A model generated the notes under the pieces. That model saw nothing but the letters and a program-made list of their open reading frames with translations, did no database searches and was not told the DNA's origin. A stretch of DNA of 64,000 nt from positions 1 through 64,000 of the IMG/VR virus record IMGVR_UViG_3300009430_000001. One strand, given 5' to 3'. Within the stretch, counting starts at the first letter, position 1. Each line of letters begins with the position of its first letter. A program made the translations under genes and the position numbers. This document shows, piece by piece, positions 3,801 to 21,963 of the stretch. This stretch comes from a virus.

Positions 3801-6800
3801 GTGACCCTTCACAAAAAAGAGAGGCGATCTGCTGCCCTGCATCAGGGTGCTGCAGCTGCGCCAACGGACACCGGCGCTGTCGGCGGCAGCCCCGTAGCGC
3901 CGGATCCGAATCGGCCTGGACTGGCGTATCTCGAGATCGGCGAGATCGCGCTGAATTACAACCACAGTGATCCCGCCATCTTCTTTCGGCTGGATGATGA
4001 CACGGTTGCGAAGTTCTCGCCAACTGCCGGCCTGAAGATCGTCAATACCGCAGCCAATCTGCCGGCACCAACAGCAACGGTTGCGCCACCGCCAGACGGC
4101 GCGTCGTTCCTGGTTCGGTTCGCCGCTGACGCAGTCACGCCGCTCGGGAGAATGGCGACGTGGGACTCGAGCCTGCCGGCTCCAGCCACTGCGGCTCCGG
4201 GCGCACCGCAGGGTGATTGGCGCTGGGACACCGGTGAGGTGTTCGTCAAGGCCCAGGCGGCCGATCCGGACTGGCTGGCCACGGGCCCTCATGCGGTGCC
4301 GCTGGCGCCGGGGGATTTCCAGATCACGACGGAGGCTGGCGCGGAAGCGATCCAGCTCTGGGACGGAACGGCCTGGGTGCCGGTGTTCGATGCGCAGGAG
4401 CTCCACCGGCGCTTCGCCGGGATCCTGCGGGTGGACCGGGCGGCGAATCTGCCGGCCTCGAGCCTGGCTTCTCCGCTGACGGCCAACCAGCTCGCCTTCA
4501 TCGAGCAGGATGCGGCCGGCGGGCTTGATCCGCATCTGGCGATCTGGCGGGAGACGACGGCTGCAGTGGGTGGCGCCACCCCGGCCGCGTCGGTGGGCGA
4601 ATGGCAGGAGCTGCGGCCCTTGTACCGCGGGTCCGTGCAACGGCCGAGCGACCTGCCGACTCCAGCGCTGGGTGCGCCACTGCAGGAGGGGCTCACCTTC
4701 CTGGTGCGCACCACGCAGAACGGTGATCCGCTCAATCAGCTGCAGGTGTTCCACGAGACGGCGCCTGAGGTGCCGGGCACCACGGCGCAGCAGGGTCAGT
4801 GGTCTCCAATCGATCAGACGATCTTCGCGAAGGGGACGCGCAACGATCCCGATCCCACCGCCGGCATGACGCACGGCGATCTGCTCGTCACCACCGAGGC
4901 GGATCACGAGCAGATCAAGGTCTACGACAGCGTGGCTGGTGCATGGCATCTGCTCTACTCGGAGGACATTGTCAAGGGCTGGATTGCCGCTCTGAGCCTG
5001 TTCCAAGGGACTGTCGCAGAAGATGGCACCACACAGCCTGGTGTAGTGGCGTTCAGTGATCTGCCTTATCTGCCCTCCAATACCCAGCAGATGGCGGAGC
5101 TGGCGGCGCATTATTACACCTTCGTCGGCACGCCTGGTTATCACATCGTCGGTCCCAGTCCGACAGGTGGTGGCATTTCGACGCTGGGCAGTCCTCAGCC
5201 GGCGACGCTGACGCCTCTGCCACAGGCAGGGCTGCCGTACACGAGTCCGGAGTTGCCGCTGGTTCCCTCCGTCCCCGGAGCAGCCAATGGTGTTGGCGGC
5301 CGTGCGGTGCTGCAGATCGACGCCGCGGGTGTGATCACGGTGGCGTTGCGCCGTGCCGGCCGCGGCTACGCCAGGAATGATGTGCTGACGCTCGCGGATC
5401 CGAGCGCACCGGGTGGACTGCTGGAGCTGACGCTCGACGTGTCGGCCGCGGGCCAGAGCGGTGGTGATGCCTGTGGCCTGGGTGTTGACCTGGCGGGCGC
5501 GGTGCTGCAGGTGGGGGACTGGCTGCAGGTGGTGAACCGCGGCACCCCCCAGGCGCCGGACATGCACTGGACGCATATCGGCGGTGACCTGCTGGCCAAG
5601 GCGCGGGCGGATCTGCTCTATGGCCTGCAGAGCTGGGCGCAGGGCACCTGGGAGGCCGGTGCGCTGGTCGTTTACAACGGCAAGGTCTGGCGTGCGGCGC
5701 GGGCGATCACCGCTGCTGATGGCGCGCCGGGCTCGAGGCTGTTTCCGTTCACGGTTGCAGCTTCGCCATCGGCAGGCCTGGTTGGTGTGTCGATGGGCAC
5801 GGCTCTCGCGCGGCTGTCCGGATCAGCGGCGGGTGACTGGATTGAATGCACTGCCGACACGAACCTGGGCAGTCAGGGGCCATTCGCCACTACAAGCATT
5901 CAGCGAGGAGATCGTTTTGTTTCTATCGGCGATCCGGTGATCAATGGTGTCACTATCGATGGCTACACCGTCAGCCGGGGCGTGATTCGCGTCCCGGCTG
6001 CGGCAGTGGCAGCAGGTGGAACGAACTGGGTGCCGATCTCACCGGTGGAGATCCCGTCATCGACCTGGACGCCGATCGACATCGACGCCGGCCTCAAGAC
6101 CGTGGCCGATGATGCCGCCCTGCCGCGGGTGCCGCTGCCGAATGATCTGATCTTCGTGATCAGCTCCGCGCGCAACCACAACAAGCCGTCGCTGCTGATG
6201 TGGGACGTGGTGGCCCGTGACTGGGTGGTGGTCGGCGGCGGTCTGCCGATGGATCTGTCCGGCGGCGTGGGCCTGACGAACATCGGTACACCGATCGGCT
6301 CGATCGTCGCCTGGCCGTCCGTCACGATTCCAAGCGGGTGGATCCTGTGCGATGGCCGCACGCTGAATGTGGGCCAGTACCCGCAGCTGCAGGCGGTGCT
6401 GGGTGGCCGGCAGATTCCGGATTTGCGCGGGCAGTTCATCCGCGGCCATGATCCGCGCTGGACGACCCGGTACCTGGGGCAGCAGCATCCGTGGACGACG
6501 GGCCGGCCGCGTGGGGCTCCGTTCACCGGCAACAGCAACGCGGCCGGTCAGCACAACCACGCTGCGCACCCTACCCTGCGGTGGCACGGCTTGTCCGGTG
6601 GCAGCGGTTCATCAAACCTGGAGTGGGGCCTGGAGTGGGGCAGTGGTTCGAGCATTAAGAAGGACGAGTGGACGCAGCTTGACGGTGATCACTACCACAC
6701 CACCAACATCTCCAGCGGCGGTGATGCTGAAACCGCGCCGGATCATGTGACCTTGAACTACATCATCAAGGCCTTCGAAACCCTCGTCACCGCACAACCA

Positions 6801-6803
6801 TGA
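3801..6803 (+). CDS. Large tail fibre with C-terminal phage tail collar domain
   Basis: This 1000-residue protein probably carries the receptor-binding tip. Around residue 50 it has a GEIALNYN motif (the GEIAxN anchor seen in three more proteins of this window). A long body follows with repeated V/IWRxT-type and D-LWDGTAWVPV segments. The last ~170 residues hold a tail-collar-type domain: IGSIVAWPSVTIPSGWILCD, GQYPQL, DLRGQFIRGHD, then histidine-rich HNH and HYH stretches and a terminal NYIIKA. Tail collar domains form trimeric metal-binding fibre tips. The start is GTG, chosen for the upstream element. It overlaps the next gene by 4 nt (ATGA). Confidence 0.85.
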   Translation: MTLHKKERRSAALHQGAAAAPTDTGAVGGSPVAPDPNRPGLAYLEIGEIALNYNHSDPAIFFRLDDDTVAKFSPTAGLKIVNTAANLPAPTATVAPPPDGASFLVRFAADAVTPLGRMATWDSSLPAPATAAPGAPQGDWRWDTGEVFVKAQAADPDWLATGPHAVPLAPGDFQITTEAGAEAIQLWDGTAWVPVFDAQELHRRFAGILRVDRAANLPASSLASPLTANQLAFIEQDAAGGLDPHLAIWRETTAAVGGATPAASVGEWQELRPLYRGSVQRPSDLPTPALGAPLQEGLTFLVRTTQNGDPLNQLQVFHETAPEVPGTTAQQGQWSPIDQTIFAKGTRNDPDPTAGMTHGDLLVTTEADHEQIKVYDSVAGAWHLLYSEDIVKGWIAALSLFQGTVAEDGTTQPGVVAFSDLPYLPSNTQQMAELAAHYYTFVGTPGYHIVGPSPTGGGISTLGSPQPATLTPLPQAGLPYTSPELPLVPSVPGAANGVGGRAVLQIDAAGVITVALRRAGRGYARNDVLTLADPSAPGGLLELTLDVSAAGQSGGDACGLGVDLAGAVLQVGDWLQVVNRGTPQAPDMHWTHIGGDLLAKARADLLYGLQSWAQGTWEAGALVVYNGKVWRAARAITAADGAPGSRLFPFTVAASPSAGLVGVSMGTALARLSGSAAGDWIECTADTNLGSQGPFATTSIQRGDRFVSIGDPVINGVTIDGYTVSRGVIRVPAAAVAAGGTNWVPISPVEIPSSTWTPIDIDAGLKTVADDAALPRVPLPNDLIFVISSARNHNKPSLLMWDVVARDWVVVGGGLPMDLSGGVGLTNIGTPIGSIVAWPSVTIPSGWILCDGRTLNVGQYPQLQAVLGGRQIPDLRGQFIRGHDPRWTTRYLGQQHPWTTGRPRGAPFTGNSNAAGQHNHAAHPTLRWHGLSGGSGSSNLEWGLEWGSGSSIKKDEWTQLDGDHYHTTNISSGGDAETAPDHVTLNYIIKAFETLVTAQP

Positions 6804-8833
6804 CGCAATCTGGATCTCAACCCACGGATCGAAGGCTTGTTATTTGGGAGGCGCAGGCAGGCAATCCCGATCAGGGCCGCATGTTCGCGCTGCCGCCAAA
6901 TCAGGCCAGTGGCGTGCCGCTGCCGACGGCGCGCATTGCCGCCGGGATTCCCGCCGTGGGCGGTGTTGTCGGTGAGCTGCTCTATGACACGATCACGCGA
7001 CGCGGTGTGGTGTGGACCGGCTCGAACTGGCTCGACATCAGCGCCAGTGCAATCGTGCGCTTCCCCACGGATGCGGCCCTGAAGGCCGACACCACGCAGG
7101 TGACGGGCACCTATGCGGTGAGCCAGGCAACGGGCAACCCCTACGTCTACACCGCCACCGGCTGGCTGAAGGTCGGGACGCAGGAATACCCGGATGTGCG
7201 GACGCTGCTGGCGGACAATCCGGCCCACGGCACCGTCGGCCTGGCGATGGATGAAGGTTCGCTGTGGGAGCGCGGGCCGACCGCCTGGCAGTCGCTGTCG
7301 ATGCGTGAGCTGGTCGACACCGATGAGGTGTTCAACTGGCGGTCCAATGAAGGCGGCAGCATTGGCGATCGAGCCCTTGCGGTGGATGTGAATGTGCAGT
7401 ACATCCGCACTGCTCACGGCTGGCGGCCGGCCTCGATCTATGAGGACACCGAAGCGGCCATCAAAGCGGCGACCTGGGCGATCAATGGCCAGCAGGCGAT
7501 CAGCACCGACACCGGCCAGACGTTCGTCTATGTGCGCGAGAGCTGGAGCGATCTGCCGGCTGCCGCGGCGATCAGCGTGGTGGCGGATCAAGCAGCCCGC
7601 CTGGCTGTGGCCACCCCGGCCACGGGCAAGATCGTCGCGCAGCGGGACACGCAGCACGCCTGGCGGTGGGATGGCAGTGCCTGGGTGGATCTCGATGAGA
7701 TCCACATCTATGCCACCGACGCCGATCGGCTGGCCGCCGAGCCACCGGTGGACACCGTGGCCCTGGTGCGGGCCGCAGGCGTGACGGCCTTGAGCGGCGC
7801 GTGGTCGATCCGCACGGCAGGGCAGTGGCAGCAGGATCCGATCCAGCACTACGCCACCGAAGCGGCGCTGCTGGCTGACAGCCCGCCGGACGGGACGCTG
7901 GCCTGGGGCGATGACACCGGCCTGGTGTACGCCCGCCACGGCGGGCAGTGGACGCGGGTGAATAGCCCGACGATCACGATCGGCGCTCACCCGACCACCC
8001 CGGCAGCAGGTGACCTGAACTACCGCGCCGGTCGCGGCCTGCAGGTCTGGGATGGGACCGCCTGGCAGGAAGTGGGCGGTTCAGCCGTCACGGTGGCGAC
8101 GACGGCGCCTGCGGGTCCACAAGCTGGTGATCTCTGGTATGCGACAAATCGCCTGGGACGGTTCAAGGTCTATGACGGCAACAGCTGGCAGGAAACCAGT
8201 GGCGTCAAGTACACCCGTGGCGCCATTGCCAGCAGGCCTGCATATAGCAACTCGGATTATGGCGACATCTTTGAGGACAGCACCACAGGCGAACTGTGGA
8301 TGGCGCTCCGGCATGACTGGCGCCTGATCTCCTTTCCGGCCGAGGACTGGTCGAGTCTGGCAATCGCTCTTGCTCCCGAACGTGTCACAAAACTATCCGG
8401 CCGGATGTATGTCCACCCGCTCGGCGGCAATGGCGGTGGCGCTCATCTCATTCTGGCTTTCAACAAGCAAGGCGGCGGCAAGTTGATGAATAGCGACTTC
8501 ACCATCAACAAGACAGGTGCTTACAATCTTACCGCTAACAACTGGGCGTCGAGAGATTATGATGGCGGCGGCGGGGGCGGCAATGGGTGGTATGGCTGCT
8601 CTTTTCACCCTGTGAAGCCAGGTTCATCTGCTGGATTTGACCTGACGGCAACAACAATCGGCGACAGCTGGTGCATTGAAGTTCGCGCTTCTTTTGTCGA
8701 TAGTAGCAATGATCTTTGTCATTCGGTTGCGCTGTTTGAGTGGAATCAACCGGCCCACCCGCTATCGGAGATTTATTTCTCCACTGTTCAAGGACAGTCG
8801 TCCGTTAGTTACAACGTCGCGCAGATCAGCTGA
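6800..8833 (+). CDS. Large tail-fibre-like protein
   Basis: The 677-residue product is translationally coupled to the collar-domain fibre (ATGA overlap). It contains several degenerate repeats of ~70 residues, each with an A-DAxLLADxPPxGT-type lead-in and a closing tryptophan (LADSPPDGTLAW, LLADNPAHGTVGLAMD). A GDLWY/DGNSWQE block follows. The final 150 residues are glycine-rich with aromatic residues and could be a distal receptor-binding tip. No collar or peptidase motif was recognised. Confidence 0.75.
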   Translation: MTQSGSQPTDRRLVIWEAQAGNPDQGRMFALPPNQASGVPLPTARIAAGIPAVGGVVGELLYDTITRRGVVWTGSNWLDISASAIVRFPTDAALKADTTQVTGTYAVSQATGNPYVYTATGWLKVGTQEYPDVRTLLADNPAHGTVGLAMDEGSLWERGPTAWQSLSMRELVDTDEVFNWRSNEGGSIGDRALAVDVNVQYIRTAHGWRPASIYEDTEAAIKAATWAINGQQAISTDTGQTFVYVRESWSDLPAAAAISVVADQAARLAVATPATGKIVAQRDTQHAWRWDGSAWVDLDEIHIYATDADRLAAEPPVDTVALVRAAGVTALSGAWSIRTAGQWQQDPIQHYATEAALLADSPPDGTLAWGDDTGLVYARHGGQWTRVNSPTITIGAHPTTPAAGDLNYRAGRGLQVWDGTAWQEVGGSAVTVATTAPAGPQAGDLWYATNRLGRFKVYDGNSWQETSGVKYTRGAIASRPAYSNSDYGDIFEDSTTGELWMALRHDWRLISFPAEDWSSLAIALAPERVTKLSGRMYVHPLGGNGGGAHLILAFNKQGGGKLMNSDFTINKTGAYNLTANNWASRDYDGGGGGGNGWYGCSFHPVKPGSSAGFDLTATTIGDSWCIEVRASFVDSSNDLCHSVALFEWNQPAHPLSEIYFSTVQGQSSVSYNVAQIS

Positions 8834-14147: not shown

Positions 14148-15614
14148 ATGACCAAGTACGTTCACAAGCATTCGAGCACTGCCGGAAGCAAGCCCACGGC
14201 TGCGGACCTGGAGCGCGGCGAGATCGCGGTCAACCTGGCGGACAAGAAGCTGTTCACCAAGGATGCCAGCGATGCGATCGTCGAGCTTGGTAGTGAAGAT
14301 TCTGTAATTATTGCGGCTTCCGCGCCACCAATTACGCGTGCGGGTCAGCTTTGGCTAAATAATGCTCAGCCAAGCGGCCCGGCGTTGATGGTAGCTCGGC
14401 TGGAGCCCGTGGCTCCCATGCCAACTACTATTTATGTTCCACCAGCCAATATGTATTTTAGCAGTGGAACACTTTATTCCGATGCCAGTGGTGCTTATCG
14501 GGCTCTAACTGGCGGCTCTCACGGTGGCGCAAGCCTCGCTGCGATTGCGGCAGCAAACCCAGGAACATTCGCGGTTGAGCCTGCTTACGATCCGAATCCT
14601 CCGTCGGTTTTGCGCTGGGTGGATGTCTTCGAGAACTTCGTTATTGACGATCACCATGCGCTTGCTCTTGAGGTTTACCCAGATGCCACGCAGACCCCTA
14701 ATTTCAATGCAACCATTAAAGACAAGAATGGGGCTGGGGCAGACCTATTTGTGGACTATGGCGATGGCCACATTGAGCTATTTAGCGTTCCAGGAGGGAA
14801 CAGAGGTATAGACACTAGCCATCAATACGCCAATTCCGCGGCCAAGCAAACTATCAAGCTATACACAAAAGCCAATCTTGAAGTGGTTGTTCCTGTCGGA
14901 TTACTGGCCAAACTAGGGCCGCAAGGGAAAAATTTTCCGAATTTGACTGACTTTGGCGCCAGTAAATACTACGATCCAGCCACTCCAAATCCAAACTGCA
15001 TAGACACTACAGTAAGTTTCTCTGGAATAGAAGATGGTAAAAACATGTTCGCAGGCTGTACATTTTCACAGGCTTCAGACAGATTGGGGACCCTTGAACC
15101 ACGCAATCTTTCGCTTGAGGGTTGCTTCTCCGGCTCGCTATTGACGCGTGACGCTAACATCCGCAGCCTTACCACGAGTATCAAGAATGCGTCATCAATG
15201 TACTATAATTGTGTTCATCTTGCGTCAGCCAGCCTGATATTGAACCCCACTGGGACATTAGTGGACATGATGTTTGCTGGTTGCTCGGCGCTGAGGTCAC
15301 TTCTAAATGCAAATGGACAGTTTTTGAGCGCTAAGTGGATGGTTCGCAACTGTTCGATGTTGACTAGCTTTAGCTTTAATGCTAACGCAAATACGCGATT
15401 CTGCAGGACATGGGAAGGCGCGTTTGATGGGTGTGCGTTAAGCCAGACTTCGGTTGACAACATCCTGGCAAAGCTTGATAAAGATAGCCTACAAGCTAAC
15501 AGCCATAACATTCTGCTCGGCGTGACGGGCGGAACCAATGCAACGCCGGGGGCAAATGGGCTCGCAGCTATAACTAGTCTCACTGCTCGCGGCTGGACCA
15601 TCACCCACAACTGA
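14148..15614 (+). CDS. Tail-fibre protein with BspA/DUF285-like C-terminal body
   Basis: The 488-residue protein has the GEIAVNLADKKLFTKD anchor at its N-terminus. A body follows with repeated NMFAGC, MMFAGCSAL and MVRNCSML segments, like the leucine-rich surface repeats of the BspA/DUF285 families. It ends LTARGWTITHN, as does 13304-13669. The body DNA (about 14300-15500) is visibly richer in A/T than its neighbours, which suggests a recently acquired receptor-binding region. The stop overlaps that of the convergent minus gene. Confidence 0.75.
   Translation: MTKYVHKHSSTAGSKPTAADLERGEIAVNLADKKLFTKDASDAIVELGSEDSVIIAASAPPITRAGQLWLNNAQPSGPALMVARLEPVAPMPTTIYVPPANMYFSSGTLYSDASGAYRALTGGSHGGASLAAIAAANPGTFAVEPAYDPNPPSVLRWVDVFENFVIDDHHALALEVYPDATQTPNFNATIKDKNGAGADLFVDYGDGHIELFSVPGGNRGIDTSHQYANSAAKQTIKLYTKANLEVVVPVGLLAKLGPQGKNFPNLTDFGASKYYDPATPNPNCIDTTVSFSGIEDGKNMFAGCTFSQASDRLGTLEPRNLSLEGCFSGSLLTRDANIRSLTTSIKNASSMYYNCVHLASASLILNPTGTLVDMMFAGCSALRSLLNANGQFLSAKWMVRNCSMLTSFSFNANANTRFCRTWEGAFDGCALSQTSVDNILAKLDKDSLQANSHNILLGVTGGTNATPGANGLAAITSLTARGWTITHN
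14202..14290 (+). repeat. Direct DNA repeat, copy 2 (fibre anchor)
   Basis: Second copy of the 89-nt anchor repeat found at 12924-13012. Confidence 0.75.
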
Positions 15615-17500: not shown

Positions 17501-17902
17501 TTACACCAGGGCGGGCTGGGGTGCTTGCTGGAGGACAGGCGGCTGCTCGGCGGCCTTGTTCTGGGGCACCAGGCAGATCATGTCGTTGTCGAACTCGACC
17601 TTGTAGGTGTCGCCGGTGACAGCACCGATCTTGCTGAGGTAGGCCTTGCCGACGCTGATCGTGTTGGTCTTGCTGACGGTGAGCACGCCAGTGGCGACAC
17701 GACGGGGGCGGGTCGGAGCGAAGCTGTGACCGTTGGCTTCCAGCATGGCTTCAAGGAAGGCGGGCACATCGACGCGTTCCTTGCCTTCCTTGGTGAGGGC
17801 GAGATAGCCGCAGGCACGGGCTTGCTCGGACTTGCTCTTGCCGTCGAGCTCGGCGGCCTTGTTGAGCAGAGCGGGGCCGGTGAGGCGGGGAGTGTCGGGC
17901 AT
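17501..17902 (-). CDS. abrB: Cyanobacterial AbrB-family transcription regulator
   Basis: The 133-residue protein has the two-part layout of cyanobacterial AbrB proteins. The N-terminus is LTGPALLNKAAELDGKSKSEQARACGYLALTKEGKERVDVPAFLEAMLEANG. After a basic linker comes a swapped-hairpin-like SVGKAYLSKIGAVTGDTYKVEFDNDMICLV. In cyanobacteria these proteins regulate nitrogen/carbon genes and redox responses by binding DNA as dimers or oligomers. In a phage it could reprogramme host metabolism or phage transcription. The ATG at 17902 is preferred over an upstream GTG at 17911. A terminator follows the stop. Confidence 0.88.
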   Translation of the reverse strand: MPDTPRLTGPALLNKAAELDGKSKSEQARACGYLALTKEGKERVDVPAFLEAMLEANGHSFAPTRPRRVATGVLTVSKTNTISVGKAYLSKIGAVTGDTYKVEFDNDMICLVPQNKAAEQPPVLQQAPQPALV

Positions 17903-17992
17903 GGAGGACACGAGTGTTCGAATGCAAGTGTAAGCGGTATCGCGTGCAGCTGGCGAGAGGAGCCATGCAGCGCGCGTGCTGTCTGTTGCGGT

Positions 17993-18190
17993 TTACGCGG
18001 CAAACTGCCAGGCGCGCAATGCGGTGCGCTGCGTGGACCGGCGAGCGCGGCGAGGGAGCTCCACTGGCAGGGAGCGATCACGGCTGCCGATCATCTGGCG
18101 AGTGAGGCGGTGCACCTCATCGGCGAGGTCGTGGATGCCGCGCTGACGCAGGAGGCCTTCGATGGTGAACAGCGCGGCGGTGGGTGTCAC
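17993..18190 (-). CDS. Small hypothetical protein coupled to the sigma factor
   Basis: The GTG at 18190 overlaps the sigma-factor stop (GTGA), so the two are translationally coupled. The 65-residue product is helical and basic (FTIEGLLRQRGIHDLADEVHRLTRQ). It could be a sigma partner or modulator, but no known anti-sigma motif was recognised. An upstream ATG at 18232 is an alternative start. Confidence 0.55.
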   Translation of the reverse strand: MTPTAALFTIEGLLRQRGIHDLADEVHRLTRQMIGSRDRSLPVELPRRARRSTQRTALRAWQFAA

Positions 18191-19131
18191 GCCGGCACCG
18201 GAGCAAGCCGCGGCGGGAGGGATGGGCTCCATCCCGGCAGCGGCAGGGGCGTGCTGTCGATCATCGCTGGTGGACACCAGTCGCTCAGCAGGGGATCGAG
18301 GCGCAGCTGCTGGATCGCATGCCGTTCGAGCTGGGCAATGTGGTCCTTCGTGCAGTTCAGCTGCTGGGCGATCTGGGAGGGGTTGAGCGGCGGGTCGTTC
18401 AGGTAGAGCGAGCGCAGGATGAAGCGTTGCTGCGGTGTCAGCGCTGCGCGTCCATGGATCGCCTGGTCGAGACATCGCCTGAGATCGTGTTCTTCCAGAG
18501 TATGAGCGCCATCATCGCCAATGACGTTGTGGCTGAGGACGCCGCGCTCGTCTTCGTCGGCCTGCGGGTCGATCGCGATGATCCTGTTCATGTGGAGTGC
18601 CTGCTCCACCTCGAGGATCTGCTCCTCGCTGAGCTCGGTGGCGGCCGCCAGTTCGGCGAGCGTGGCCGGCCGGCCGAGCTCCTGGCTGAGGTCGCGGCGG
18701 GCCCGGGTGAGCTTGCGGATCGCCGTGTGCATGGCCGCCGTCAGCCGGATCGTCGTCGACTGCTGGTGGCAGATCTGTTGGCAGGCAGCCATCGCGTACC
18801 ACGTGGCGTAGCTGCTGAAGCGGAAGCCGCGGGTGGGATCGAAGCGCTTGCAGGCGGTGATCAGATTCTCGAGGGCCGCCATCGCCAGGTCTTCCAGTGG
18901 GATGCCGTGGCCGTCGAACTTGGCGGCGTTGTGCAGGGCCAATCGCTGGTTGGCCAGGACGAAGGAATCCAGCGCTCGCCTACCTTCTCGCTGGATGGAG
19001 CGCGGCGCTGCATCGGGCCCGCCGGGCCATTGCTGCCAGGTCTGGATGGTTCTGCCGAGCTCGATTTCCTGTTCTGGGGTCAGCAGGCGGTATCGCCCGG
19101 CCGTCCGCTTGAGCGCCTCGAAACCGTCCAA
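18187..19131 (-). CDS. RNA polymerase sigma-70 family factor
   Basis: The protein is ~314 residues from a provisional TTG at 19131. Region 1.2-like YRLLTPEQEIELGRTI comes first. Region 2 (residues ~53-125) reads LVLANQRLALHNAAKF-type, then DLAMAALENLITACKRFDPTRGFRFSSYATW; the usual region 2.2 G-L-I/M is A-L-E-N-L here. Region 3 (~130-180) has ELGRPATLAELAAATELSEEQI. Region 4 (~218-282) has LTPQQRFILR, then an HTH, NPSQIAQQLNCTKDHIAQLE. It is a group 2/3-type factor that should redirect host RNA polymerase. The frame stays open to 19485 but overlaps the nblA-like gene there, so the start is uncertain. Confidence 0.88.
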   Translation of the reverse strand: MDGFEALKRTAGRYRLLTPEQEIELGRTIQTWQQWPGGPDAAPRSIQREGRRALDSFVLANQRLALHNAAKFDGHGIPLEDLAMAALENLITACKRFDPTRGFRFSSYATWYAMAACQQICHQQSTTIRLTAAMHTAIRKLTRARRDLSQELGRPATLAELAAATELSEEQILEVEQALHMNRIIAIDPQADEDERGVLSHNVIGDDGAHTLEEHDLRRCLDQAIHGRAALTPQQRFILRSLYLNDPPLNPSQIAQQLNCTKDHIAQLERHAIQQLRLDPLLSDWCPPAMIDSTPLPLPGWSPSLPPRLAPVPA

Positions 19132-19224
19132 GGGAGGAGGGATTGCCGTCCTGATTCTCGCATGGCGAGCAGCCAGCTGCAGAACTGCTGTACTCTGCTG
19201 GGAAGCAGCAAGGAGGGCTGCACC

Positions 19225-19443
19225 ATGATCCTTTCCCCTGAAGCTGAATTCCGTCTTCGCCAGATTGCGCTGGAAGCTGAAGAGCTCGACGCCCCGCAGC
19301 TTCGTAAGGTGCTCGTGCGCACCTGGCAGCTGTGGCTCACGGAACGCCAGACGCTCCGTGAGGCCTTGGCCGCCGAGGGCATCGCGATGAACGTCGAGGT
19401 CAACGGCGCTCATCCGAAGCAGCTGGCCGCCAGCCTGGGCTGA
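19225..19443 (+). CDS. nblA: NblA-like phycobilisome degradation protein
   Basis: The 72-residue protein aligns with the NblA/Ycf18 family over its first ~52 residues: LSPEAEFRLRQIALEAEELD corresponds to the family LTLEQEF-LR block, and LVRTWQLWLTERQTLREALA to the LV-LY-Q-M-RE-LY-LL block. NblA dimers bind phycobiliproteins and deliver them for Clp proteolysis. Phage copies are known from Microcystis phages. A strong AAGGAGG ribosome-binding site lies 8 nt before the ATG. The extra ~18 C-terminal residues are unusual (typical length ~55-65). It is divergent from the sigma-factor gene. Confidence 0.7.
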   Translation: MILSPEAEFRLRQIALEAEELDAPQLRKVLVRTWQLWLTERQTLREALAAEGIAMNVEVNGAHPKQLAASLG

Positions 19444-19478: not shown

Positions 19479-20162
19479 ATGGCATTCATCACGGGAAACA
19501 GCGGCACCTCGACGGGCGCGCACCTTGATTTCCGTGTCTTCGATCCGGCGAAGGGGTCGTACATCGACCCCAACCCTTTCGCCGGCCGCCTTCTTGTCGG
19601 TGGCAAACGCCTGAGCGATCAGTTTCAGGTCACTTCTCCGTATGGCGATCGCGTGCATCCGGTGCATGGCGATCGACGGATGCATCACGGCATCGACTAC
19701 GGAACACCAGAAGGGACGAGAGTCGATTTCGAGGGTGGCACGTTCAAGGGCTGGTCGTTCGACAAAGGCGGCGGCGGCCACATGGGCGTCTTTGGGTTCA
19801 CTGATGCCAACGGCCGGCAGCTTGAGGCTGTCATGTTGCACGGCAGTGACCCAGGCAAGGGCGCGCCATCGGCACCACCTGCTGGCGGAGGTGGATCCTC
19901 GGGCTCCAGCGGCGGCGGGGATGCTGAGCCGATCCCCATGCCGGAGCCGATCAAGCCGCAACCGATCAAGCCGCCGGAGCCGATCCAGCCATCGCAGCCG
20001 CTCACTGCGGGCGGGAGTGCGACGCCGCAGATGGGTGAAGGCCAGAAGCTGTGGGAGTCCCTGCAGAAGGACAGCCATCGCAAGGCCGGTGATCAGCGCA
20101 TGCAGCTGCTGGTGCAGTTGATGGCTGGCGGGTTGAAGGATTTGTTCGGAGGCTTTGGCTGA
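19479..20162 (+). CDS. M23-like peptidase domain protein with permuted motifs
   Basis: Residues 1-20 read GNSGTSTGAHLDFRV, the motif that normally ends an M23 (lysostaphin-type) domain, but with HLD instead of HLH. Residues ~50-80 then have SPYGDRVHPVHGDRRMHHGIDYGTP, the motif that normally begins the domain and carries HxxxD zinc ligands. The order is therefore permuted. A Gly/Ser linker, a PEPIKPQPIKPPEP proline segment and a helical C-terminus with a hydrophobic end follow, for 227 residues. It could be a wall-degrading or purely structural tail protein. The next start overlaps its stop. Confidence 0.65.
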   Translation: MAFITGNSGTSTGAHLDFRVFDPAKGSYIDPNPFAGRLLVGGKRLSDQFQVTSPYGDRVHPVHGDRRMHHGIDYGTPEGTRVDFEGGTFKGWSFDKGGGGHMGVFGFTDANGRQLEAVMLHGSDPGKGAPSAPPAGGGGSSGSSGGGDAEPIPMPEPIKPQPIKPPEPIQPSQPLTAGGSATPQMGEGQKLWESLQKDSHRKAGDQRMQLLVQLMAGGLKDLFGGFG

Positions 20163-20356
20163 TGGACAACGCGCACCCGAGCCATCAGGTCCGACGTGAC
20201 AGTAGTGAGCACGGCCGCCTGATTCCCAGGTACGCCGGAGAAGCGTTCCTGCACATGGCGGGATCTCACGATGTGCCACGTTTGCGGCGGCTGGTGAGCG
20301 ATGAGGCCTACAAGAAGCCGCCATCGGCCAGTGTGAAGGCCGAAGTGTCGACCTGA
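20162..20356 (+). CDS. Small basic hypothetical protein
   Basis: The 64-residue product overlaps the M23-like stop (TGATG) and so is coupled to it. It is histidine- and arginine-rich (HQVRRDSSEHGRLIPRY, PRLRRLVSDEAYKK). No family was recognised. It is probably a virion assembly accessory. Confidence 0.55.
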   Translation: MDNAHPSHQVRRDSSEHGRLIPRYAGEAFLHMAGSHDVPRLRRLVSDEAYKKPPSASVKAEVST

Positions 20357-20397
20357 GGCCGCAGCCCGCGTACGATGGGCCGGACACGCCATTGATC

Positions 20398-20979
20398 ATG
20401 GAGTTGACCATCGAAACCGCTGCTTTGGCCCGGGCGGCCGAGGTGGCTGCCGGCGCCGGGCTGACAGTGCTCGCGATCGCTGCGCTGACGCCGCGGCTGA
20501 TGCGGCCACTGGAGCGCCGGGTTGATGAGCTTGAGCGGATGCCTGAGGCACTGAGCCGCGAGATCCAGAAGGCCTTCCTGACGCTTCAGGGCGAATCGCG
20601 AGATCTGCAGCAGCGTATCAGCGCCGTGCTGCAGCGAACTGGTGAGGCCCTCGAGCAGATCGGCCAGCAGCAGGATGGACTCACGCAGGTGCTCACCGGC
20701 GTGCAGGCTGCCCAGGTTGCGCTCAACGCCCAGGACCAGCAGTTCCAGGCGGCGCTGCTGGAGATGAATGAGCGACTGGGGCGCCAGTCGGAGGTGCTGA
20801 GCCGGCTGGTCGAGGTGTCGCAGCGTCCGCCGGCGATGCCGACACCGCCGGATCCGTGGAGCGGCGGCCTGACGAGTGAACTGAATGAGCGACTGGCCGC
20901 TCAGCGCGAGGAGTTCCTGCGCCGCCAGGCTGAGCGCGGCCGCGCCTTCCAGGCTCCGCAGCCGGAGGGAGCCCAGTGA
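20398..20979 (+). CDS. Membrane-anchored coiled-coil protein
   Basis: The 193-residue product has a hydrophobic Ala/Leu segment at residues ~12-31, then a long coiled coil (residues ~38-130, many Q/E/L heptads such as LQQRISAVLQRTGEALEQIG) and a proline-rich plus helical tail. It could be a tape-measure-like, spanin-like or membrane-tethered virion protein. An upstream TTG at 20392 is an alternative start. The next gene overlaps it by GTGA. Confidence 0.6.
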   Translation: MELTIETAALARAAEVAAGAGLTVLAIAALTPRLMRPLERRVDELERMPEALSREIQKAFLTLQGESRDLQQRISAVLQRTGEALEQIGQQQDGLTQVLTGVQAAQVALNAQDQQFQAALLEMNERLGRQSEVLSRLVEVSQRPPAMPTPPDPWSGGLTSELNERLAAQREEFLRRQAERGRAFQAPQPEGAQ

Positions 20980-21587
20980 AGCTGCTCGTGATCGGACTGA
21001 CGAGCGACGCCCCCGGCTGCGGAAAGAGCACCGCGGCCTTCGCGATCCATGCGTGCCGCGATGGCTGGCACACGGTGCCGTTCGCCAAGACGCTCAAGAC
21101 CATGACGCGAGCATTGCTGGCGGACATCGGCATGAGTGAGCCGGAGATCATTCATCACATGAATGCGGGCAAGCAGGACATCATTGATTCACTGGGCACG
21201 AGTGCGCGGCGGGTCATGCAGGTACTGGGCACCGAGGTGGGTCGTCATATCAGTGAAGACTTCTGGGTACGGATCTGGATGAAGCGAATCCTTGATCTTG
21301 AGCTTGTTAATGCCAAAGGAGTCATCGTTGATGACGTTCGATTTCCCAATGAGGCAAAAGCCATCAAGCAAGTTGGCGGCGAGTTGTGGCGCATTCAGCG
21401 CGACAGTCATATCAAGCTGGATGTGACACATGCCAGTGAAGGCAGCTTGCGGCATTTTGCCGTGGATCGCATTATCGAGAACAGCAGTTCGGTGCGCGAT
21501 TTTGCAGCGGCTGTGAAGACGGCCCTGCATGCTGCTGAACGGCGTCACCTCGAGGCGTTGGATCTTGCTGATGTTGGAGGACGCTGA
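20976..21587 (+). CDS. Deoxynucleoside monophosphate kinase
   Basis: The 203-residue protein has an N-terminal P-loop GLTSDAPGCGKST (Lys17), as in P-loop nucleotide kinases, and a central VDDVRFPNEAKAI motif (residues ~118-130) typical of phage dNMP kinases such as T4 gp1. The enzyme would phosphorylate dNMPs to dNDPs for phage DNA synthesis. The start is GTG in a GTGA overlap. MazG is the next gene, giving a small nucleotide-metabolism pair. Confidence 0.83.
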   Translation: MKLLVIGLTSDAPGCGKSTAAFAIHACRDGWHTVPFAKTLKTMTRALLADIGMSEPEIIHHMNAGKQDIIDSLGTSARRVMQVLGTEVGRHISEDFWVRIWMKRILDLELVNAKGVIVDDVRFPNEAKAIKQVGGELWRIQRDSHIKLDVTHASEGSLRHFAVDRIIENSSSVRDFAAAVKTALHAAERRHLEALDLADVGGR

Positions 21588-21588
21588 A

Positions 21589-21963
21589 ATGGGTACCGTA
21601 CGCACACTGCCATTGGCTGTCACCATGGAAGGACTTGATTTCACCACGTATCAGATGAAAGCTCGGGAGACTGGGATTTGCCCTGCGATTGGCGGCTCGG
21701 AAATTTATCCGTGTCTAGGTCTCGCATCAGAGGTTGGCGAGTTGATGGGGAAAGTCAAAAAGATATATAGAGATCATAAAGGCCAGTACACAACAGAAGA
21801 TCTTGATGCTATTGCCTCTGAGGTGGGGGACTGCATGTGGTACTTGGCGACGATTGCCACGGAGTTGGGAATTTCACTCGAAGGCTGTGCGCGAGGCAAT
21901 CTGGAAAAACTCGCCTCACGCAAGGCTCGTGGAGTGCTCGGTGGTAGCGGGGATAATCGATGA
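21589..21963 (+). CDS. mazG: MazG-like nucleotide pyrophosphohydrolase
   Basis: The 124-residue protein carries the MazG signature: ExxE at Glu48/Glu51 (LASEVGELMGKVKK) and ExxD at Glu78/Asp81 (IASEVGDCMWYLA), which together bind Mg and the nucleotide triphosphate. Cyanophage MazG proteins hydrolyse (d)NTPs and may influence host nucleotide or alarmone pools. The DNA here is A/T-richer than its flanks, suggesting independent acquisition. The ATG at 21589 just follows the kinase stop. Confidence 0.9.
   Translation: MGTVRTLPLAVTMEGLDFTTYQMKARETGICPAIGGSEIYPCLGLASEVGELMGKVKKIYRDHKGQYTTEDLDAIASEVGDCMWYLATIATELGISLEGCARGNLEKLASRKARGVLGGSGDNR

Follow-up and report, generated by a model that had tools for sequence, protein, structure and literature searches.

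An nblA-like gene is fixed in the S-EIV1-like lineage of cyanophages. The copy described here, in a window of 64,000 nucleotides from a 96,597-base (96.6-kb) IMG/VR record, encodes a divergent NblA-type protein of that lineage's own family, and this protein most likely works as known NblA does, a reading that we hold with reasonable though not high confidence. The gene and its surroundings are as follows, with G006 denoting a related virus that is used for comparison throughout.

18187–19131, minus strand: sigma-70-family factor (regions 1.2–4); the TTG start at 19131 is taken from the alignment with G006 and the start codon is uncertain
19210–19216, plus strand: ribosome-binding site AAGGAGG, 8 nt 5' of the ATG, read from the sequence
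19225–19443, plus strand: nblA-like gene, 72 aa; NblA core (residues 3–48) and a 24-residue C-terminal extension
19479–20162, plus strand: M23-metallopeptidase-like gene, 35 nt 3' of the nblA-like gene; weak matches
20162–20356, plus strand: 64-aa ORF, same order in G006
20392–20979, plus strand: 195-aa ORF, same order in G006, where it also has 195 aa

The coordinates of the 72-aa ORF in the first-pass annotation are correct and its translation contains no internal stops. The strong ribosome-binding site claimed there is present, and the divergent gene on the minus strand is indeed a sigma-70-family factor, with matches to sigma regions 1.2, 2, 3 and 4. The frame is open far upstream, and the sigma gene is on the other strand, as would be expected if this were a spurious ORF that lay antisense to the leader of the sigma gene or overlapped it. 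Such an origin is scarcely credible given the ribosome-binding site and a GC content at codon positions 1/2/3 of 0.74/0.42/0.75, which is typical of a coding frame. It is further opposed by the gene found at the same place in G006, whose product is 41% identical to the window protein over 64 residues (E 5e-15) in a match that begins at residue 2, and by the alignable sigma region, which does not overlap the nblA-like frame. A second, identical copy of the gene is present on IMG/VR contig 3300025106_000026. A search around the gene revealed neither a sigma-70 promoter nor a terminator.

The portal-like structural protein and the large terminase of the virus are closest to those of Synechococcus phage S-EIV1 (49% and 45% identity, respectively), and a test of membership in the S-EIV1-like lineage gave a match to PHROG 20475 at 8e-166. 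Homology of these two proteins indicates that the virus belongs to the S-EIV1-like lineage. Ranked by bit score, the sigma factor has its best partial match in freshwater phage S-LBS1 (42.5% across half its length). A picocyanobacterial host, as proposed in the first-pass annotation, is made likely by the terminase and portal-like protein being closest to those of S-EIV1, the closest cultured phage and one that infects Synechococcus, but the assignment is indirect.

Scans for relatives with the terminase and the sigma factor returned only the same virus, so relatives were gathered by portal-protein alignment. This yielded 80 related viral contigs, and 50 records were scanned with the Pfam NblA profile (PF04485). 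The NblA-like gene is present in 14 of the 50, including all 10 records of at least 41 kb in length; the remainder are fragments. Two of the scanned records score above the Pfam NblA cut-off by themselves. In S-EIV1 itself the scan gave 17.4 bits in AHV82245.1, annotated as a hypothetical protein, and a single BLASTP comparison aligns AHV82245.1 with the window protein at E 1e-5. The G006 portal is 58% identical to that of the window virus, and the two share a gene order consisting of the divergent sigma factor, the nblA-like gene, a peptidase-like gene and then ORFs similar in size and sequence.

Viral contigs contain at least 551 places that a similarity scan for the S-EIV1 type of the protein picked out as candidates. 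This type is under strong purifying selection, with a median dN/dS of 0.07 that is approximate because dS is high (median 1.5). When a profile built only from S-EIV1-type sequences was run against the 1,806 ORFs of the window genome, the frame at 19225–19443 was matched at E 0.0025 and the next at 7.5. The score of the window protein (18.5 bits) exceeds those of all 20,000 of its own shuffles, the best of which reached 15.3 bits. The alignment to AHV82245.1, the identity to the G006 homologue and this profile match together join the window protein to the clade. Used alone as a query against phages and bacterial genomes, the window protein found no matches, nor did a tblastn search of phages with a marine homologue. 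Nothing convincing was found for the window protein in PHROGs, which has no family for it, in the PDB (phmmer) or in annotated phages.

The C-terminal extension had been described as unusual in the first-pass annotation. This description does not hold within the clade, where every relative has an extension, mostly longer and acidic, and that of the window copy is the shortest. In the S-EIV1 type the extension comprises a conserved stretch, a predicted helix and an acidic tail that ends in PF in 80 of 80 loci. The window copy, with 24 residues, has no acidic tail. The core of the earlier interpretation, a phage gene for an NblA-like protein, is supported, but through the relatives of the window protein only.

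Taken singly, the window protein has no significant match to PF04485 (14.5 bits, E 0.05, against a cut-off of 25). It is nonetheless its best match in Pfam, with residues 3–48 aligned without gaps to positions 2–47 of the 50-position profile. Since this score lies below the curated cut-off, the single-sequence search is no proof of NblA identity. The profile comparisons of the family are more informative. PF04485 is matched by 13 of 13 aligned family members (best 1.6e-6), and the family profile, run against all PDB sequences, retrieves the four NblA structures (1ojh, 2q8v, 2qdo and 3cs5) with E values from 3.2e-7 to 0.0057, no other sequence having an E value under 1. In hhalign comparisons with NblA, the mixed family alignment A2 gave 96.4% and alignment A6, mostly of the S-EIV1 type, gave 94.6%, over 49–50 gap-free columns. 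Most members of A2 were chosen with the NblA HMM, which inflates the 13-of-13, PDB and A2 hhalign results; the bias is smaller for A6, whose sequences were found by their similarity to these members. Of 386 whole genomes from the cyanobacterial phylum that were searched in six frames with the family profile, 120 were matched at E <= 0.001, and the top places listed are nblA places found independently by PF04485. A profile of only the window protein and its G006 homologue found NblA in the PDB at E 1.3 and gave 46% in hhalign, two sequences being too thin a basis. At 47 positions compared with Anabaena NblA, the window protein has 12 identities, the same number as Synechococcus elongatus NblA, and the NblA of Planktothrix phage PaV-LD has 7.

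Profile comparison thus supports homology of the clade to the NblA family. The alternative is that this is an unrelated small helical protein and that the resemblance to NblA reflects convergence of two amphipathic helices. It draws on the sub-threshold single match, the lack of a PHROG match and a blank Foldseek search, and it is difficult to reconcile with a gap-free match over the full domain in 13 of 13 relatives or with profile searches in which NblA stands out both in the PDB and in whole genomes. It is further opposed by a PF04485 search of six other cyanophage genomes: five have no match at E <= 1, and the one that is matched, PaV-LD, has a known nblA. We consider convergence improbable.

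The AlphaFold monomer of the window protein contains helices at residues 5–20 and 23–50 (mean pLDDT 73.5, mostly 70–90), and in the models of S-EIV1-type relatives the corresponding helices, at 14–28 and 32–59, are in register with these. The predicted short-helix/long-helix hairpin, seen in models of monomers, is of the NblA type. Foldseek searches of the PDB and BFVD with both models retrieved no NblA, a result that we take as uninformative, the query being a two-helix hairpin searched without a positive control.

NblA hands phycobilisome proteins to ClpC, and its dimers form a four-helix bundle (PMC7966870). By analogy, the window protein probably serves as a Clp adaptor in the breakdown of phycobilisomes. 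Its short and long helices are predicted to form a hairpin, and two such hairpins would dimerise into a four-helix bundle. The dimer would then bind phycobilisome proteins as cargo and, by docking on ClpC, pass them to the host ClpC–ClpP protease. The outcome during infection would be a release of amino acids and weaker absorption of light. Dismantling of phycobilisomes by the window protein is plausible, with the reservation that the protein lacks a residue that does not vary among canonical NblA.

That residue is at position 53 (Anabaena numbering). Of 64 distinct canonical NblA sequences, a sample in which high scorers and Nostocales are over-represented, all 64 have Lys there; S. elongatus, Thermosynechococcus vulcanus, Microcystis phage Ma-LMM01 and PaV-LD have Lys or Arg. 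The window protein, S-EIV1 and another relative (G008) have Ala instead, G006 has Gln and the marine-type relative G012 has Arg; across the clade the basic residue is usually lost. Position 51, a large hydrophobic residue in sampled NblA, is also Ala in the window protein. Both positions are conserved in sampled NblA but are not part of the PF04485 family definition. Bienert and colleagues (2006) reportedly linked the binding of phycobiliproteins to L51 and K53. The basic residue is likewise absent, as read from the sequence, from an NblA-like ORF in a small cyanobacterial genome of 63% GC, probably that of a picocyanobacterium; in its genus, 4 of 25 genomes have a marginal match and none exceeds the cut-off. 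Loss of the basic residue may therefore be an adaptation to such hosts rather than a loss of function. Small cyanobacterial genomes with a clear nblA were also considered as picocyanobacteria and set aside, their sequences being Thermosynechococcus- or elongatus-like.

These substitutions are the starting point of the main competing explanation, in which the protein is a Clp adaptor with an NblA fold that has given up the phycobilisome as its cargo, or at least as its main cargo. The hairpin and the ClpC docking would be kept and another host or phage protein would be delivered, perhaps at lysis. Besides the loss of the basic residue at 53 and the hydrophobic residue at 51, this explanation has in its favour the clade-specific acidic C-terminal region with its uniform PF end in the S-EIV1-type loci, and the fact that a peptidoglycan-hydrolase-like gene adjoins the nblA-like gene in each of three settings, as a lysozyme gene in the S-EIV1 type, the M23-like gene in the window and an extensin-like peptidase gene in G006. 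It is weakened by the marine relative, which retains Phe51 and Arg53, and by the probable picocyanobacterial protein described above, which suggests that differences in the antenna may explain the missing basic residue. We regard an altered cargo as unlikely, though as the most serious of the competing explanations. Slightly less likely again is its fullest form, in which this widespread cyanophage lineage would have turned NblA into a proteolysis adaptor of the lysis cassette, altering its cargo, adding a C-terminal module peculiar to the clade, discarding the phycobilisome-binding residues and retaining the gene beside a peptidoglycan hydrolase. The preferred reading is still that of an adaptor for phycobilisome breakdown.

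Among the S-EIV1-type contigs, 74 extend far enough upstream to show the preceding gene, and in all 74 the phage lysozyme gene immediately precedes the nblA-like gene on its strand; these contigs are closely related and do not count as independent. The peptidoglycan-hydrolase-like neighbour suggests that the nblA-like gene may be expressed in the middle or late phase. In the window, the product of 19479–20162 matches Pfam M23 at E 0.12, a PHROG metallo-endopeptidase at 1.3e-5 and an endolysin at 2.7e-5; its motifs are seemingly permuted, with the C-terminal motif at residues 5–31 and the N-terminal motif at 47–82. The same slot in G006 (6254–7093 of locus L106) holds the extensin-like (M15-type) peptidase, which is unrelated to the M23-like protein and overlaps the nblA-like gene. 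In two divergent marine-type relatives (L091 and L092, around 1547–2017), the beginning of the nblA-like gene is overlapped, in a different frame, by an ORF resembling an HNH nuclease.

Further from the gene, an AbrB-like regulator (PF14250, E 1.4e-4) at 17501–17911 adjoins the phage sigma factor, and genes for a deoxynucleotide monophosphate kinase and MazG follow the nblA region at 20976–21963. A 488-aa ORF near the tail genes (14148–15614) has no Pfam family and lies where the GC content of the first 26 kb is lowest (53.5%); it is possibly a recent acquisition.

Phage genes of the NblA type are a direct link between infection and host light harvesting. A 'hypothetical' gene of the type phage S-EIV1 now appears to be an NblA that is kept by nearly every member of its lineage, which makes it possible to test whether picocyanobacterial phages generally dismantle the antenna and what stands in for the usual binding residue. 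Phage NblA is already known from Ma-LMM01, MaMV-DC, PaV-LD and marine phages (PMC9602691), and the genes that Nishimura et al. 2017 listed for the S-EIV1 group include hli and ptoX but not nblA (PMC5332604). We found no earlier report of NblA in the S-EIV1-like lineage, although it may have been noticed in Chenard et al. 2015 or Nadel et al. 2019, and its fixation there in this divergent form appears to be unreported.

Compared with cyanobacterial NblA, the window protein has a near full-length, gap-free core that includes L7, E10, F13 and R16 (Anabaena numbering), the same predicted succession of a short and a long helix, and a divergence within the range of true NblA. It differs in falling below the Pfam cut-off, in having Ala at both 51 and 53, and in its clade-type extension of 24 residues. 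The NblA proteins of Ma-LMM01 and PaV-LD are likewise phage-encoded and share the domain, but they score 52 and 45 bits and keep Lys or Arg at position 53; nblA of Ma-LMM01 adjoins ribonucleotide-reductase genes, whereas the window gene adjoins genes of lysis type. PF04485 gave no match at E <= 1 in S-SCSM1, S-TIM5, P60 or Syn5. The NblA of S-SCSM1 and S-TIM5, like that of the window, was called as a distant homologue by profile methods in picocyanobacterial phages, but these two belong to other phage lineages, the marine cyanomyo- and cyanopodoviruses (PMC9602691). S-EIV1 AHV82245.1 shares with the window protein its phage lineage, the NblA-like core and the presence of an extension, and differs from it in an acidic tail that ends in PF and in a position behind a lysozyme gene rather than beside a sigma factor.
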